64,000 nucleotides of DNA from contig JAUWMI010000010.1 of the NCBI GenBank assembly GCA_030613245.1, positions 1-64,000 of the forward strand, written 5' to 3'. The translations under genes and the position numbers were made by a program. The notes beneath the pieces are model-generated. The model saw only the letters and a list, made by a program, of their open reading frames with translations. It was not told where the DNA came from and made no database searches. Shown here piece by piece: positions 53,160 through 60,507 of this stretch (position 1 is its first letter; the number at the start of each line of letters is the position of its first letter). The DNA is from Candidatus Sumerlaeota bacterium (GTDB lineage Bacteria > Sumerlaeota > Sumerlaeia > MWCT01 > JAUWMI01).

Positions 53160-54191
53160 ATGTTCAACTTCCTGTACAATCTCTTCTCGATGGATATTGG
53201 AATTGATCTTGGCACTGCGACTACGCTGGTCTATGTCAAAGGCGAAGGGATCGTGCTATGTGAGCCCTCGGTAGTTGCCATTCAGCGAGACAAGAACGTT
53301 CTCCTTGCGGTGGGTGCAGAAGCCAAGCGAATGATCGGCAGAACGCCTGGTAACATTGTGGCAATCCGGCCGATGAGAGATGGAGTGATTGCTGATTTTG
53401 AGATTACCCAGGATATGCTCCGCTACTTTATTAAGAAGGTGCATATGAACCGCCGGCGTTTGGTGCATCCGCGGATCGTGATCAGTGTGCCTTCGGGAAT
53501 CACTGAAGTAGAGAAGCGCGCGGTGCGGGAATCAGCGTACCAGGCGGGCGCCCGTGAGGTCTACCTCATGGAGGAGCCGATGGCCGCGGCAATAGGTGTC
53601 GGTCTTCCGGTCACTGAGCCATCGGGCAGTATGGTGATTGACATTGGTGGCGGGACTACTGAGGTGGCGGTGATCTCGCTGGGCGGTATTGTGGTCAGCA
53701 AATCTGTACGGGTGGCTGGCGATGAGATGGATAATGCAATCGCGCAGCATATCAAACGCAAATATAATTTGATGATTGGCGAGCGAACGGCTGAGGAGAT
53801 CAAGATCAAGATTGGCTCTGCGGATAAGTTGCCGGAGGAGTATGTCCAGGTGATTAAAGGGCGGGATCTTGTTGCAGGATTGCCGCGCACGATTGAGGTT
53901 ACCTCGGAGGAGATACGCGAAGCTCTGGCCGAGCCTATCACGACGATTGTTGACGCGGTCAAGGCCACGCTGGAGAAGACGCCGCCTGAGTTATCTGCGG
54001 ATATCGTAGATGCGGGTATTATCATGGCTGGTGGAGGCTCTCAGCTTCAGGGTATGGACACGCTTTTGGCCAGTGAGACGGGGCTGCCGGTTCGGCTTTC
54101 CGAAAATCCTGAAACCGCGATCGTGCTCGGCACTGGGAAGACTCTCGACTCGTTGGAAATGCTGAGCAAGTTAGAGAGCATGAAGCGTTGA
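53160..54191 (+). CDS. mreB: Rod shape-determining protein MreB
   Basis: 343 residues. This actin-like ATPase organises cell-wall synthesis along the cell side. A short amphipathic N-terminus, [16 protein letters not shown], agrees with membrane binding. Actin-fold motifs: phosphate-1 [15 protein letters not shown] (about 14-28), phosphate-2 [18 protein letters not shown] (about 160-177), and adenosine [15 protein letters not shown] (about 288-302). The start is ATG 53160 behind AAGGAG and a promoter candidate. It is followed by mreC, mreD and rodA. Confidence 0.98.
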
Positions 54192-54441
54192 GCCTTGGGA
54201 CGCCGGGCAGTGCAGCAGCGGTTGTCGTGGGCGCAGTTCGGCCGGCCGGACATCAGCTAGGTTTGTGCCCGAGCGGTTACTTTCTTGAGGGGCCACGGTA
54301 GTGATGGGTTGTAACTGTGGTTCTCAGGGGGATTCAGGGGCGCGAACCGCGGCTGCAAGATTTTCGTCACCCCTATTCAATTCCCCATATGCATCGGACT
54401 GGGTCCTGGAGACAGCCCGTTATGGCTAACGGGTGCTCATC

Positions 54442-55275
54442 ATGAATCTTAAGCGATTGTGGACGTATCGGAAACTCATTCTTTTCTTCCTGCTAATATT
54501 TCTCTCCTTTCTTATCCTCATGGCGCAACAGAGACAAGCACTGAGCGAGAGTCAGGCAGGGCGCATTGCGCTGGTGATCTTCGATCCGCTATTTAAGGCG
54601 ACAGCTTGGGTGGATGAACGCGTGGTGGATTTCTTTGACGTGGCGTTGAGCCGCTCGTCGCTTCGCCGTGAGAATGAAGCCTTGCAGCAAGAACTGGCCG
54701 CACTGGAGGTTAGATACCGGCTACTGAAGCATGAGATGCTAAAGCTACAGAGTCTGTCAGATCTACAGACGCTTGATCTTACCAGGTCGCTTCGATTGCT
54801 TCCGGCGAGTGTCACGGCCGTGAGTCCGAGCCCCTGGAGTCGAACTGTGGTCGTTGATAAAGGTATCATTCAAGGAGTACGGACAAACATGGCAGTTGTG
54901 CACGTGACGGGGCTGGTTGGAATTGTTCGCGAGGTGACACCGAATAGCGCAGTGGTTCAACTTCTTATTGACCAGCGAAGCGCCGTGGGTGTGAGGGTTG
55001 AAGAGACCCGTGAGCGTGGCATCGTGCGTGGTCTCGGTACGCCGGAGCGCTACGAACTGCTGCTTGAGGAGTCTGGTGAGGGGCCGCAAGAAGGGGCGAC
55101 TGTGGTGAGCTCGGGACTGGAGGGATCGCATTTCGCTGGTGGGTTGCTTGTGGGAACCGTTCATGGCGCTAAGAAAAACAAGTATGGTCAGGTTATTGCC
55201 ATGGTCAAGCCAGCCGTGAATATGAATCGCCTGGAAGAGGTTCTGATTATTCTGGGCAGCGAGGAGGGGAGTTGA
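54442..55275 (+). CDS. mreC: Cell-shape protein MreC
   Basis: 277 residues from ATG 54442; a GTG at 54433 would add three residues. MreC is a periplasmic scaffold linking MreB to penicillin-binding proteins. A membrane anchor (about 12-32, LILFFLLIFLSFLILMA) is followed by a coiled coil (about 72-107) and the beta-rich MreC core (about 120-275), with ASVTAVSPSPWSRTVVVDKG and VVSSGLEGSHFAGGLLVGTV as typical segments. mreD begins on its last codons (TTGA overlap). A 250-nt gap after mreB contains no terminator. Confidence 0.95.
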   Translation: MNLKRLWTYRKLILFFLLIFLSFLILMAQQRQALSESQAGRIALVIFDPLFKATAWVDERVVDFFDVALSRSSLRRENEALQQELAALEVRYRLLKHEMLKLQSLSDLQTLDLTRSLRLLPASVTAVSPSPWSRTVVVDKGIIQGVRTNMAVVHVTGLVGIVREVTPNSAVVQLLIDQRSAVGVRVEETRERGIVRGLGTPERYELLLEESGEGPQEGATVVSSGLEGSHFAGGLLVGTVHGAKKNKYGQVIAMVKPAVNMNRLEEVLIILGSEEGS

Positions 55276-55784
55276 ACAGTTACAGTACGATATCCCCCGC
55301 TCGGCTGTTTCGCATCGGCAGCACGGTTAAGCTGCTTCTACTTGTAGTAGCTGTCCTGTTTTTTGAGTTCGCGGTGCAATACCTGGTGCGCTATCGCGTG
55401 CCTGTTCCTCATCTGCTGGCTCTGTTGGTAATATTTATCGGCCTGCAATGGGAAGAGACTAGGGGAGCGGTGCTGGGATTCGTCTTCGGGATGCTTTACG
55501 GTCTCCTTGCGTATGAGCCAATCGGGCTGTCGGCATTCGGGCTGACGCTGATCGGGTTTCTGAGCGCGCAGTTGAAGAGGCATTTCTTTGTTGATACGTA
55601 CGCAGACAAAACAGTTCTTGCAGTCTGCTTGCTCGTTATGCACAACGTTGCTATCGTGATAGTGGCGTGGCTCACACTGGGATTGCATCTTCCGCTTGGC
55701 CTGCTTCAGTGCGCGATCACCGGTATATTCGCCGCGCCTTGTTTCGTTATTTTTGACTGGTTGTTTCAGACGAGGGAGAGATAA
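55272..55784 (+). CDS. mreD: Cell-shape protein MreD
   Basis: 170 residues with about five membrane segments. MreD is an inner-membrane partner of MreC in the elongasome. The start is TTG 55272 overlapping the mreC stop; GAGGAGGGGA immediately upstream supports it. Segments LLALLVIFIGLQWEETRGAV (about 49-68) and GFVFGMLYGLL (about 69-79) match the family. MreD sequences vary greatly; position between mreC and rodA settles the call. Confidence 0.92.
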   Translation: MNSYSTISPARLFRIGSTVKLLLLVVAVLFFEFAVQYLVRYRVPVPHLLALLVIFIGLQWEETRGAVLGFVFGMLYGLLAYEPIGLSAFGLTLIGFLSAQLKRHFFVDTYADKTVLAVCLLVMHNVAIVIVAWLTLGLHLPLGLLQCAITGIFAAPCFVIFDWLFQTRER

Positions 55785-55790
55785 GACGAC

Positions 55791-56903
55791 GTGGCGCTGT
55801 GGCAGTATATACAGATTGATCGCCGATTGCTCAAACACTTTGACTCTTTCATTCTCATCCTGATCCTGCTGCTCAGCCTTGTTGGCATTATAGTGATGTA
55901 CGGGTCAACTCATGCGATCCCGCATTTGCAGGGGATTGCTAAGCGCCAGGCGGTATGGGTGCTGGTTAGTCTGATCGGTTTCGGGATCGCCATTAGTTTT
56001 GATTACCGTCATCTCAAGCGATTTGCCTACCCGCTTTATGCGATTTGCGTGATCCTACTTGTCATCCTGCTGGTTAGAGGGATGACTATCAAAGGTTCAG
56101 CGAGCTGGTTCTCTTTTGGTAGAATACGTATGCAGCCATCGGAGTTTACCAAACTGGCGGTTGTCATAGTCCTGGCCGCATACTTCTCAAGCCGCACGCT
56201 GCGTATTAAGAGCATTCGTCAGGTTGCCATCCCGGTGCTTCTTGTGGCGGTGCCAACTCTGCTCATTCTGAAGCAGCCAGACATCGGTACAGCGGCACTT
56301 TTTCTACCTGCACTCTTTATTATGCTGTTCATTTGCGGCGCTAGAAAGCGTGTGTTAATTACGCTGATGGTGCTTTTTCTTGCTGGGGCGGGTGCGATGT
56401 ATCCGTTCCTCAAGCCCTACCAGAAACAGCGCATCTCGATTTTTCTCCATCCTGGATCGGACGCGCTTAATCGTGGGTATAACATCATTCAGGCAAAGAT
56501 TGCACTGGGTTCAGGCCAGCTGACGGGTAAAGGGTGGAAGCAAGGGACCCAAACAGCGCTACAATTTCTGCCCGAGCATCATACGGATTTTATCTTTTCC
56601 AGCCTGGGTGAACAGTTCGGCTATCTTGGATGTATGGGTTTACTTATGCTGTATGGCGTGTTGATAGCGCGGGGAATAAGAATTGCCCGCGATGCGCAGG
56701 ACTTCTTTGGCTGCTACCTGGTCATTGGACTACTTGCGATATTTGTTATTCACATACTGGTGAACGTAGGAATGTCGGTGGGATTATTGCCGGTGACGGG
56801 ACTCACGCTGCCGTTCATCAGCTACGGTGGATCGTCGCTTCTCACAAATTTTCTTCTGTTCGGGCTTGTTGTAAACGTGGGGATGCGGAAGTTTATGTTC
56901 TGA
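55791..56903 (+). CDS. rodA: Peptidoglycan glycosyltransferase RodA (SEDS family)
   Basis: 370 residues with ten membrane segments. RodA polymerises lipid II glycan strands during elongation and normally works with the transpeptidase PBP2. Motifs: GSASWFSFGRIRMQPSEF (about 103-120), KQPDIGTAALF (about 161-171), a loop with LPEHHTDFIFSSLGEQFG (about 265-282) and the C-terminal PVTGLTLPFISYGGSSLLTN (about 333-352). The start is GTG 55791 after GAGGGAGAG. The PBP2 gene (mrdA) that usually lies between mreD and rodA is missing; only 6 nt separate these two genes. Confidence 0.97.
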   Translation: MALWQYIQIDRRLLKHFDSFILILILLLSLVGIIVMYGSTHAIPHLQGIAKRQAVWVLVSLIGFGIAISFDYRHLKRFAYPLYAICVILLVILLVRGMTIKGSASWFSFGRIRMQPSEFTKLAVVIVLAAYFSSRTLRIKSIRQVAIPVLLVAVPTLLILKQPDIGTAALFLPALFIMLFICGARKRVLITLMVLFLAGAGAMYPFLKPYQKQRISIFLHPGSDALNRGYNIIQAKIALGSGQLTGKGWKQGTQTALQFLPEHHTDFIFSSLGEQFGYLGCMGLLMLYGVLIARGIRIARDAQDFFGCYLVIGLLAIFVIHILVNVGMSVGLLPVTGLTLPFISYGGSSLLTNFLLFGLVVNVGMRKFMF

Positions 56904-56990: not shown

Positions 56991-59642
56991 ATGAGTTGCA
57001 AGCGAAGTATAAAGTGGGAGGGGCTCGTGTTCGTATGGCTAATCCTGGTGCAGTTGAGCATCAGTGCCTCCCCCATTATGATTACTGAAGGTGTGCGGCA
57101 GTTGGCACTATCACCCGACGGCAATCAGGTGGCATTTGTTCTTCATAATGCGCTCTGGGTCATGCCAAAAGCCGGAGGAGAGACCCAGCGGCTGGCTGAC
57201 GGTGAGATTCAGGATCCGAGCTGGACACCGGATGGGCAGCAGATAGTGTTCGCGATGAAGGAGCGCGAGACTCTAGATCTTTGGCAGGTGGCTGTCACAT
57301 CAAAACGTGTTGATCGGATAACATCGAGCACTGCGAATGAGATGATGCCGAGCGTGTCGCCGGATGGCCGCTGGATTGTGTGGGTTTCGGATCGAAGTGG
57401 CAATCCGGATCTTTGGCTTATGGATGTTGAGGGTAAGCACGCGAGCCGTCTGACCACGAACCTCTTTCCTGACACCCAGCCCTATTGGGATATGAAAGGT
57501 AAGACTATTGTTTACACGACGTTTCACAATCAAAGGGATCAGATTGCTACGCTCAAGGTAAAAGGTGACGAGCCGGAAATTCTCGCTGGGCTGCGTGGAC
57601 GTAATCCACAGTGGTCTCCGGATGGCCGATACCTGGCGTTTGTGAGAAGAGGCCTCAGTATTTACCATGTGACGGACAAGGCAGAGCGCACGATTGTGCC
57701 AGGTGAGGTGACTGCGTATTCCTGGTTACCTGATAGTACGGGATTAGTGTATGCGGAGGATGGAAAGATCTGGGAAGTCTCGATCAGCCTTGAGAGGCCG
57801 GAGACGAAGAGGATTTCGTTCGCGTGCCTGATGGAGCCGCAAGAGCTGTTCGAGCAGGTTTGGTCTGATCTGAATCAGCGCTATTATTTAGGGCGATCAG
57901 GCGAACAGGCTTGGAGAACAATGAAGACACAATACAGTGAGAAAATCCGTGACGTTTCAACGGAGGCTGAATTTCAAGAATTGATCTACAATATATTACT
58001 GCATCTACCGCAGATTAATGCCACGGCGACAGGACAGAAGGGTGTGGTTGCAGCTGCGAATCCGTATGCTCCTGAGGCAGGTATAGAGATTTTGAAAAAG
58101 GGGGGCAATGTGGTGGATGCAGCAGTGGCTTCCGCCTTTGTGAGCGACGTGGTGGAGCTGGGATCGTGCGGGATTGGTGGGGAAGGGATGATGTTGATTT
58201 ACCGGAGTGGAATGGCGGAGCCGGTAGTCGTGGATTTTCGCTCGCAGGCGCCGATCCACGCCACGTGGGACAACGCGGCGCTGAAGACCGAAGACGGGCG
58301 ATGGAAGCGTCACGGCCCTGAAGCAGCACTCATTCCTGGTGAAGTCCGCGGTCTGCATCTCGCGTTCAAGCGTTTTGGCAGCGGCAAGGTCGCCTGGCAC
58401 GAACTGCTTGCTCGGGCTATTCAGCTTGCCGATGAGGGATTTCCGCTAGATGAGCGGACTGCATTCGGCATTGAAAGGATGAGCGGATCTCTGGCCAGTG
58501 ATCCGGAGATGAACAAACTCTTTTTCCGAGATGGTCGTCCACTCCGTGCAGGTGAGCGATTCAGGAATCCTGATCTTGCCTCGACGCTGCGCAGTATTGC
58601 GGCGTATGGGTCTGACGCGTTCTATAAGGGCGCCATTGCAGATAAGATTGACGCTGATATGCGCGCGAACGGAGGACTGATCTTTAAGGAAGATCTAGCG
58701 CAGTATCGCGCGGTCATCCGCAGGCCCGTGGTTGGAGAATATCGGGGCTATACTATTTATGGCGGTTCTCCGCCGTGCGCGGGGGGGATAACCGTGATTG
58801 CCGTGCTTCAGATGCTAAACCATTATACCTTTGGACCAGAGCCGTATACTGCAGATCAGCGTAATTTCTTTTATTTGTCCGAGGCAATGAAGGTCGGTTA
58901 CGACATTGCACTCAAAACTGGAGACCCGGCATTCTGGGACTTTGAAACTGAGTATTATCTTTCGAAAACCTTTGCGCGGGAACAGTTCGGAGACATCCGG
59001 GCACGAGAGACGCAAAGCGTAGAGCCAACACCTATAGTGGCTAAACCGGGCCACACCTCTCATCTGGCAGTGGCAGACAGCGATGGTAATATGGTTGCCC
59101 TCACCCATACTCTGAGCGGGTGGTTCGGGAGCGGGCATATGGTAAAGGGTACGGGGATAATTCTGAATAACGAACTGCGGAACTTTAGGCATGAGCAGGG
59201 TGAGATCAACTCACTCTTGCCGCTAGTGCGCGTGCGGACGGATCTGGCTCCGCTGATTGTTTTTCGAAAAACACCCGAAGATGTAAAAAAACCCTATTTC
59301 ACGATTGGCGTAGCGGGTGGGGATTTTATTCCATCCACTGCTCTGGAGATTCTGATCAATATAATTGACTACGGGAAGTCGCTGCAGCAGGCCATCGAGG
59401 CGCCACGTTTTCTTCCGCCCGTGTGGGGTCGTCCGAGTTACGCGATTGAAGATTTCTTTTTTCCACGTGTATTGGACGCAATGATGGCACAGGGAGAGAG
59501 CTTTTCCAGACCTGCCGGGCTTGGGGAGCTCAGATTTGCTCGCGCGCAGGGAGCAATGATTGATCCAGAGAGCGGCTTGGTGGTTGGTGCGGCAGATCCC
59601 CGCGGCTCAAGGGGTCTTGCAGGGTATGTTTCAGCGTACTAA
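56991..59642 (+). CDS. Secreted fusion: tricorn/TolB-like beta-propeller + gamma-glutamyltransferase
   Basis: 883 residues from ATG 56991 (GGAGG 7 nt upstream); an ATG 27 codons earlier is less likely. A signal peptide (about 8-26) precedes a WD40-like/PD40 propeller (about 30-280; repeats such as SVSPDGRWIVWVSDRSGNPD). A short helical stretch at about 283-340 (ELFEQVWSDLNQRYYL) resembles the tricorn C1 region. From about 345 to the end lies a full gamma-glutamyltransferase: GVVAAANPYAPEAG, GIGGEGMMLIY, FRSQAP, IPGEVRGL and the catalytic threonine T689 in GHTSHLAVADSDGNMVALTH. GGT cleaves gamma-glutamyl bonds of glutathione-type compounds after self-processing at this Thr. The fusion is unusual. 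Confidence 0.85.
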   Translation: MSCKRSIKWEGLVFVWLILVQLSISASPIMITEGVRQLALSPDGNQVAFVLHNALWVMPKAGGETQRLADGEIQDPSWTPDGQQIVFAMKERETLDLWQVAVTSKRVDRITSSTANEMMPSVSPDGRWIVWVSDRSGNPDLWLMDVEGKHASRLTTNLFPDTQPYWDMKGKTIVYTTFHNQRDQIATLKVKGDEPEILAGLRGRNPQWSPDGRYLAFVRRGLSIYHVTDKAERTIVPGEVTAYSWLPDSTGLVYAEDGKIWEVSISLERPETKRISFACLMEPQELFEQVWSDLNQRYYLGRSGEQAWRTMKTQYSEKIRDVSTEAEFQELIYNILLHLPQINATATGQKGVVAAANPYAPEAGIEILKKGGNVVDAAVASAFVSDVVELGSCGIGGEGMMLIYRSGMAEPVVVDFRSQAPIHATWDNAALKTEDGRWKRHGPEAALIPGEVRGLHLAFKRFGSGKVAWHELLARAIQLADEGFPLDERTAFGIERMSGSLASDPEMNKLFFRDGRPLRAGERFRNPDLASTLRSIAAYGSDAFYKGAIADKIDADMRANGGLIFKEDLAQYRAVIRRPVVGEYRGYTIYGGSPPCAGGITVIAVLQMLNHYTFGPEPYTADQRNFFYLSEAMKVGYDIALKTGDPAFWDFETEYYLSKTFAREQFGDIRARETQSVEPTPIVAKPGHTSHLAVADSDGNMVALTHTLSGWFGSGHMVKGTGIILNNELRNFRHEQGEINSLLPLVRVRTDLAPLIVFRKTPEDVKKPYFTIGVAGGDFIPSTALEILINIIDYGKSLQQAIEAPRFLPPVWGRPSYAIEDFFFPRVLDAMMAQGESFSRPAGLGELRFARAQGAMIDPESGLVVGAADPRGSRGLAGYVSAY

Positions 59643-59745: not shown

Positions 59746-60507
59746 ATGAAAAAGATACATCTGCTCTCGATAGCCTTCGTCTGTATGGCTATATTGTTTT
59801 CGTGCGGTGAACAAGCAAGCGAGCAAGAAACCATGGGCCCAGTGATAGAATGGGATGAAGCGTGCGAAGAGTTCGCTGCACAGTTTCTCCAGAGGCTTGG
59901 CCCGGACTATGATCCCCGGGGCATCACGGGTCACGCCAGATACTGTTTTAAGACCATGACACCATTTTTCAGGGAACAGGGGCTTTCATTACATGAACGC
60001 GAGGCATTGGTGGCTCTCTGCTTGATGTCGGGGATAGAGTTTAGCCAGAGCCAGCTGGAGTACGATGGTTTGTTGGCCAAAGAGGAGAAGCGTCAGCTGA
60101 ATCAGGCGTGTATAAATGATATTGCTGCGATGGGTGAGCCGGCAGAACGTATCTGTCTTAGCCTGATCAAGGCGATTGCACCGCTGAAGAAAGGGGAGTA
60201 CCAGAAAGAATTCCCCTATGTTTTAACCGGATACTACACGATCTTTGTGCTGCAGCATATGAAGAGTAGTGAGGCCGTGCCGGTACTGATGGAGATAGCC
60301 AGCAGCCAGCTGGAGCTGCGGGGGGCGGCTGGCCGCGCATTGGGTCTTATCGGTGATCCGCAGGCCATACCGGTTTTGCGTAAGCTTGAGCGTGATCGTA
60401 AGGAGATTATTCGACGAGAAGCGAGGGATGCAATTCGCAGAATCGAGCAGATGCCTGGCGCGACACCGTTGAAGAATGATGTCGTAACATCTCCCACTGA
60501 AAAGTAG
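59746..60507 (+). CDS. Lipoprotein with HEAT-like repeat
   Basis: 253 residues from ATG 59746; longer in-frame starts lack a signal. Lipobox LFSC (17-20) predicts lipidation at C20. The region about 25-160 is helical with no known family. Residues about 175-240 form HEAT/PBS-type repeats: SEAVPVLMEIASSQLELRGA and AAGRALGLIGDPQAIPVLRKL, with a third degenerate helix pair. HEAT repeats bind proteins, so this could be an adaptor in the periplasm. The gene lies 103 nt after the propeller-GGT gene and may be co-transcribed. Function unknown. Confidence 0.7.
   Translation: MKKIHLLSIAFVCMAILFSCGEQASEQETMGPVIEWDEACEEFAAQFLQRLGPDYDPRGITGHARYCFKTMTPFFREQGLSLHEREALVALCLMSGIEFSQSQLEYDGLLAKEEKRQLNQACINDIAAMGEPAERICLSLIKAIAPLKKGEYQKEFPYVLTGYYTIFVLQHMKSSEAVPVLMEIASSQLELRGAAGRALGLIGDPQAIPVLRKLERDRKEIIRREARDAIRRIEQMPGATPLKNDVVTSPTEK

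Follow-up and report, generated by a model that had tools for sequence, protein, structure and literature searches.

This locus raises the question of whether a gene that joins a β-propeller to a γ-glutamyltransferase (GGT) through a tricorn-like segment encodes a genuine enzyme and, if so, on what such an enzyme would act. Within the window, by which we mean the whole 64,000-nucleotide stretch analyzed here, the propeller-C1-GGT fusion gene lies on the + strand at 56991..59642 as an open frame of 883 codons (883 aa) without interruption; GGAGG stands just 5′ of its ATG at 56991, and the base composition shows no break along the gene. Its product begins with a signal-peptide-like N terminus (residues 1-28; 56991..57074, +), in which KRSIKWE is followed by the hydrophobic stretch GLVFVWLILVQLSISA, and secretion is predicted from this segment. 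Residues 30-281 (57078..57833, +) comprise a PD40/TolB-like β-propeller with about six blades, as counted by reading the repeats; in Pfam it matched PD40 (E 1e-30) and DPPIV_N (2e-11), and in phmmer TolB structures, TolB-type propellers being its nearest relatives in sequence. Residues 282-341 (57834..58013, +) form a helical segment of the tricorn C1 type, in which the Tricorn_C1 match (PF14684, E 1.5e-9) covers residues 282-333, corresponding to model positions 4-55 of 59; a comparison of the C1 profile with the PDB gave no significant tricorn match.

The GGT-fold Ntn-hydrolase domain (residues 345-880; 58023..59630, +) follows C1 directly, with no Pfam match to a PDZ domain or an S41 core in the protein, and its G_glu_transpept match (PF01019, 1.5e-122) spans residues 366-873 and model positions 2-511 of 512, so that the GGT fold is complete. 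Its gene is the sole GGT in the genome, where the only other C1 resides in a propeller-less S41 peptidase. The original prediction of an N-terminal propeller, and of a GGT in place of the tricorn core, is thereby borne out. What it took for the start of C1 is indeed a C1-type segment, albeit a nearly complete one, and the proposed reuse of the tricorn design holds for the propeller (PF07676) and C1, which are shared, and not for the PDZ domain and S41 core, which are absent.

AlphaFold2 modeling of the window protein, from an alignment of this protein with related-locus sequences that included few propeller homologs, yielded a mean pLDDT of 80.9 and a pTM of 0.71, with pLDDT values of ∼95 over most of the GGT domain, ∼85-90 in blades 1-3, and low values in blades 4-6. 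Structure prediction had been proposed for the junction (residues 280-345), and three C1 helices were predicted there (283-298, 302-320, and 325-338; pLDDT 56-78), as well as in L085, a homolog from a Gemmatimonadota bin (307-326, 332-351, and 356-368; pLDDT 73-93), whose model had a mean pLDDT of 78.2 and a pTM of 0.73. Foldseek matched the GGT precursors 4y23 and 2e0w (TMt 0.87-0.89) and, further, 2nlz, 2i3o, and 6j3a, then TolB, with TMt values of 0.87-0.91 across the GGT-fold matches.

A first scan of contigs with the single window protein as query found no fusion, and a second scan recovered L085, a 964-residue protein that aligns with window residues 31-880 at 31% identity (E 2e-113). 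Sought in other genomes as had been suggested, the fusion proved to be present in 67 of 395 Gemmatimonadota genomes (threshold E ≤ 1e-70), mostly at full length (∼960 aa) and 48-86% identical to L085; 60 long sequences served as the alignment set for residue and junction counts. It was found in none of the 39 other Sumerlaeota genomes searched, nor in ∼346 genomes from elsewhere, where each further GGT examined was a standalone signal-peptide enzyme; long frames around these other GGTs turned out to be GC-rich noise preceding signal-peptide GGTs. The Pfam C1 signal is weaker in Gemmatimonadota (7 of 15 members at E ≤ 0.05). The window protein (YNILLHLPQINATATGQKGVVAAANP) and L085 (YNMLRDRPATRSSATGRAAVSSAHP) share a linker-free joint, and the junction is collinear, without a linker, in all 60 Gemmatimonadota homologs, which confirms a genuine join and refutes misassembly as the source of the architecture. 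The fusion family is thus real and conserved. As anticipated, the architecture is apparently undescribed: we found no account of a propeller-C1-GGT enzyme in open-licence PMC papers, and mention elsewhere is possible.

We then compared the active site with that of Escherichia coli GGT. The nucleophile proposed originally survives closer alignment: Thr689 (codon 59055..59057, +) corresponds to the autoprocessing nucleophile Thr391, and Thr707 to Thr409. The equivalents of Thr391, Thr392, Thr409, Asn428, Arg459, and Gly483 are invariant in 60/60 Gemmatimonadota fusions. The remaining pocket is altered, with N411S, Q430E (Glu at 430 is common in GGTs), D433N, S462T, and S463D in the window protein, so that of the γ-glutamyl donor set Arg114, Asn411, Asp433, Ser462, and Ser463 it retains only the first, as Arg417 (codon 58239..58241, +), along with the Gly-Gly oxyanion pair. 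The Gemmatimonadota fusions have lost the whole donor set except Ser462 in most cases: Arg114 is replaced by Met (57) or Leu (3), Asn411 by Gly, and Asp433 by Ser (59 of 60) or Thr, while Gln430 becomes Lys and Gly484 becomes Asn. Moreover, they carry four conserved cysteines shortly before the nucleophile (C696, C715, C743, and C754 in L085) that are missing from the window protein. An E. coli D433N mutant lost transpeptidation, kept ∼82% of hydrolysis, and gained glutaryl-7-ACA acylase activity (reviewed in PMC8062742), and the GGT homologs LmbA and Ant6 lack γ-glutamyl activity (PMC6085292, PMC5519988). The claim of an intact GGT therefore stands for the fold and the nucleophile, and is unsupported for an ordinary GGT.

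Retention of the nucleophile and of Thr409, together with replacement of donor residues, suggests that the Ntn hydrolase still works but differs in donor specificity. With moderate confidence, we propose that the fusion encodes a secreted, self-cleaving GGT-fold Ntn amidase of nonclassical specificity, in which the propeller-C1 unit acts as a substrate-selecting cap. The secreted or periplasmic precursor would cut itself before Thr689, as the conserved Thr391 and Thr409 equivalents lead us to expect, thereby exposing the nucleophile, and propeller-C1, at the N terminus of the large subunit, would form a cap or a docking site through which substrates are chosen, by analogy with the propellers of tricorn, DPP-IV, and prolyl oligopeptidases. 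Because the residues that grip the α-amino and α-carboxyl groups of a γ-glutamyl donor are mostly replaced, free terminal γ-glutamyl compounds are probably not what the enzyme acts on, its substrate rather being an acyl or isopeptide-linked compound in which these groups are absent or masked. Hydrolysis would be expected over transfer.

The protein might instead be a secreted GGT of the ordinary kind, which works on glutathione-type γ-glutamyl peptides and uses its TolB-like propeller as an accessory tether to envelope proteins or polysaccharide; this would account for the TolB-type propeller sequence, for the retained Arg114 and Gly-Gly pair, and for a score just above the cut-off of the NCBIfam equivalog TIGR00066. 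We nevertheless consider it unlikely, given the substitutions at 411, 433, 462, and 463 in the window protein, the wholesale replacement of the donor site in the Gemmatimonadota fusions, and the scores of the three Gemmatimonadota fusions tested, all of which fall below that cut-off. The retained Arg114 and Gly-Gly pair and the TIGR00066 score make it possible that the window protein keeps some γ-glutamyl activity, and the propeller may simply serve for binding or adhesion.

The gene neighborhood bears on a further alternative. The fusion gene comes after mreB-mreC-mreD-rodA (53160-56903), a cluster without the usual gene for penicillin-binding protein 2, which is likewise missing from it in the three same-order genomes that have mreBCD-rodA. 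Among four same-order genomes, a fourth has rodA only; the fusion gene is in none of them, and a response regulator follows the cluster or rodA, together with a DnaK-like gene in the three. At 28 of 60 Gemmatimonadota loci, a HEAT-type/cyclophilin prolyl isomerase gene lies directly upstream, in most cases ∼20-160 bases from the matched region. In L210, L213, and L221 the cyclophilin is in frame, with no stop, and the propeller lacks its own signal peptide, so we read these as four-part proteins comprising a cyclophilin-type prolyl isomerase and propeller-C1-GGT. For the neighbor of L085, the Pfam match is to the cyclophilin domain only, and the part that appears HEAT-like is our own reading. 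MacB/FtsX-type permeases and S9 peptidases adjoin several other Gemmatimonadota loci. No cyclophilin gene adjoins the fusion gene in the window. A short HEAT-repeat lipoprotein-like gene (59746-60507) lies directly downstream of it; this gene did not align with the Gemmatimonadota HEAT-cyclophilin proteins by BLASTP, and we do not regard them as kin.

Following mreBCD-rodA, the fusion might be an endo-acting or isopeptide-specific enzyme for poly-γ-glutamate or for the γ-D-Glu bond of peptidoglycan stems, with the propeller gripping the polymer. CapD, a GGT relative, acts on poly-γ-D-glutamate (reviewed in PMC8062742), and an Asn in place of Asp433 would presumably accept a blocked α-amino group. 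This reading is rather improbable, however, since the cell-wall context is not conserved in the four same-order genomes or the sampled Gemmatimonadota loci, which also argues against membership in a cell-wall operon, and no substrate-specific signature was found. The poly-γ-glutamate specificity raised originally is thus unsupported as stated, the donor-recognition residues being largely replaced.

In a tree built from the GGT part only, the window protein groups with 11 Gemmatimonadota fusions in a single clade (support 100/99), with the window copy on a long branch. An earlier tree had placed it with Sumerlaeota GGTs carrying Asn at position 433 (95/85), a grouping that disappeared once the Gemmatimonadota fusions were added and that was rejected by test (p-AU 0.004). 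A Sumerlaeota-class clade of standalone GGT-like proteins (L003, L004, L005, L010, and L065) has Asn at Asp433 and Gly at Asn411 throughout. Placement with the standalone proteins L086 and L087 was not rejected (p-AU 0.07), and the case for a single origin therefore rests on the tree together with the shared joint. Purifying selection acts on each of the three parts in Gemmatimonadota, with dN/dS of ∼0.04-0.2 in propeller, C1, and GGT alike for most close pairs; the pair L227/L228 is an exception (0.28 in the propeller and 0.54 in C1). The fusion would appear to have been born once and maintained in part of Gemmatimonadota, and the Sumerlaeota copy to be long diverged, through either transfer or differential/multiple loss, both of which are possible. 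The sole occurrence in the phylum sample, the long branch, and the metagenome-type contigs might point to a chimeric join made during assembly, or to an in-frame fusion that is decaying within a single metagenome bin. This is very improbable in view of end-to-end homologs that share an identical junction and are under purifying selection in dozens of Gemmatimonadota genomes, decay of the window's own copy alone being possible.

We thus favor the capped, nonclassical Ntn amidase. More tentatively, it may be a new kind of propeller-gated enzyme in which a GGT core has acquired the tricorn-type propeller-C1 of a serine protease and cleaves isopeptide or acyl-amide bonds outside the cytoplasm, in concert with the HEAT-cyclophilin prolyl isomerase, which is fused to it in some Gemmatimonadota and would present peptide substrates. 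The architecture shows the tricorn propeller-C1 front end to be portable to a mechanistically unrelated hydrolase. The family defines a GGT subfamily, predicted to be secreted and common among Gemmatimonadota, for which automatic γ-glutamyltransferase annotation is probably wrong in substrate, although NCBIfam would still name the window protein a GGT, and it offers a testable case of a GGT specificity change tied to the gain of a capping domain.

Compared with tricorn protease and tricorn-like S41 peptidases, the fusion likewise places a propeller and then C1 ahead of the catalytic unit, but it has one propeller of about six blades, and the GGT starts where C1 ends. With bacterial GGTs (E. 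coli GGT, MEROPS T3, PDB 2e0w/2dbu; Bacillus licheniformis GGT, 4y23), it shares the whole fold, the Thr nucleophile, the Thr409 equivalent, predicted secretion, and, in the window protein, the oxyanion Gly-Gly pair, whereas it adds propeller-C1, replaces Asp433, Asn411, and Ser462-Ser463, and lacks the long lid-loop region. Class IV cephalosporin acylases and GGT-like acylases (PDB 2nlz) have the GGT fold and, like the window protein, Asn at Asp433; however, 2nlz lacks the Arg114 that the window protein has, carries no propeller, and belongs to a separate clade, with which the window protein does not cluster. The actinobacterial LmbA/Ant6-type homologs, to which the Foldseek match 6j3a is related, also combine a GGT fold with loss of classical γ-glutamyl chemistry, and differ in their secondary-metabolism context. 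We know of no propeller or C1 in proteins of this type. The standalone GGT-like proteins of L086 and L087 from Pseudomonadota MAGs (40% identity) likewise have Ser at 411, Asn at 433, and Thr at 462, but no propeller. At L087:683-6224, two AstE/AspA-type deacylase genes flank the gene for this nearest standalone relative, and a DctM-like transporter gene is close by, a context that suggests catabolism of an acylated compound.
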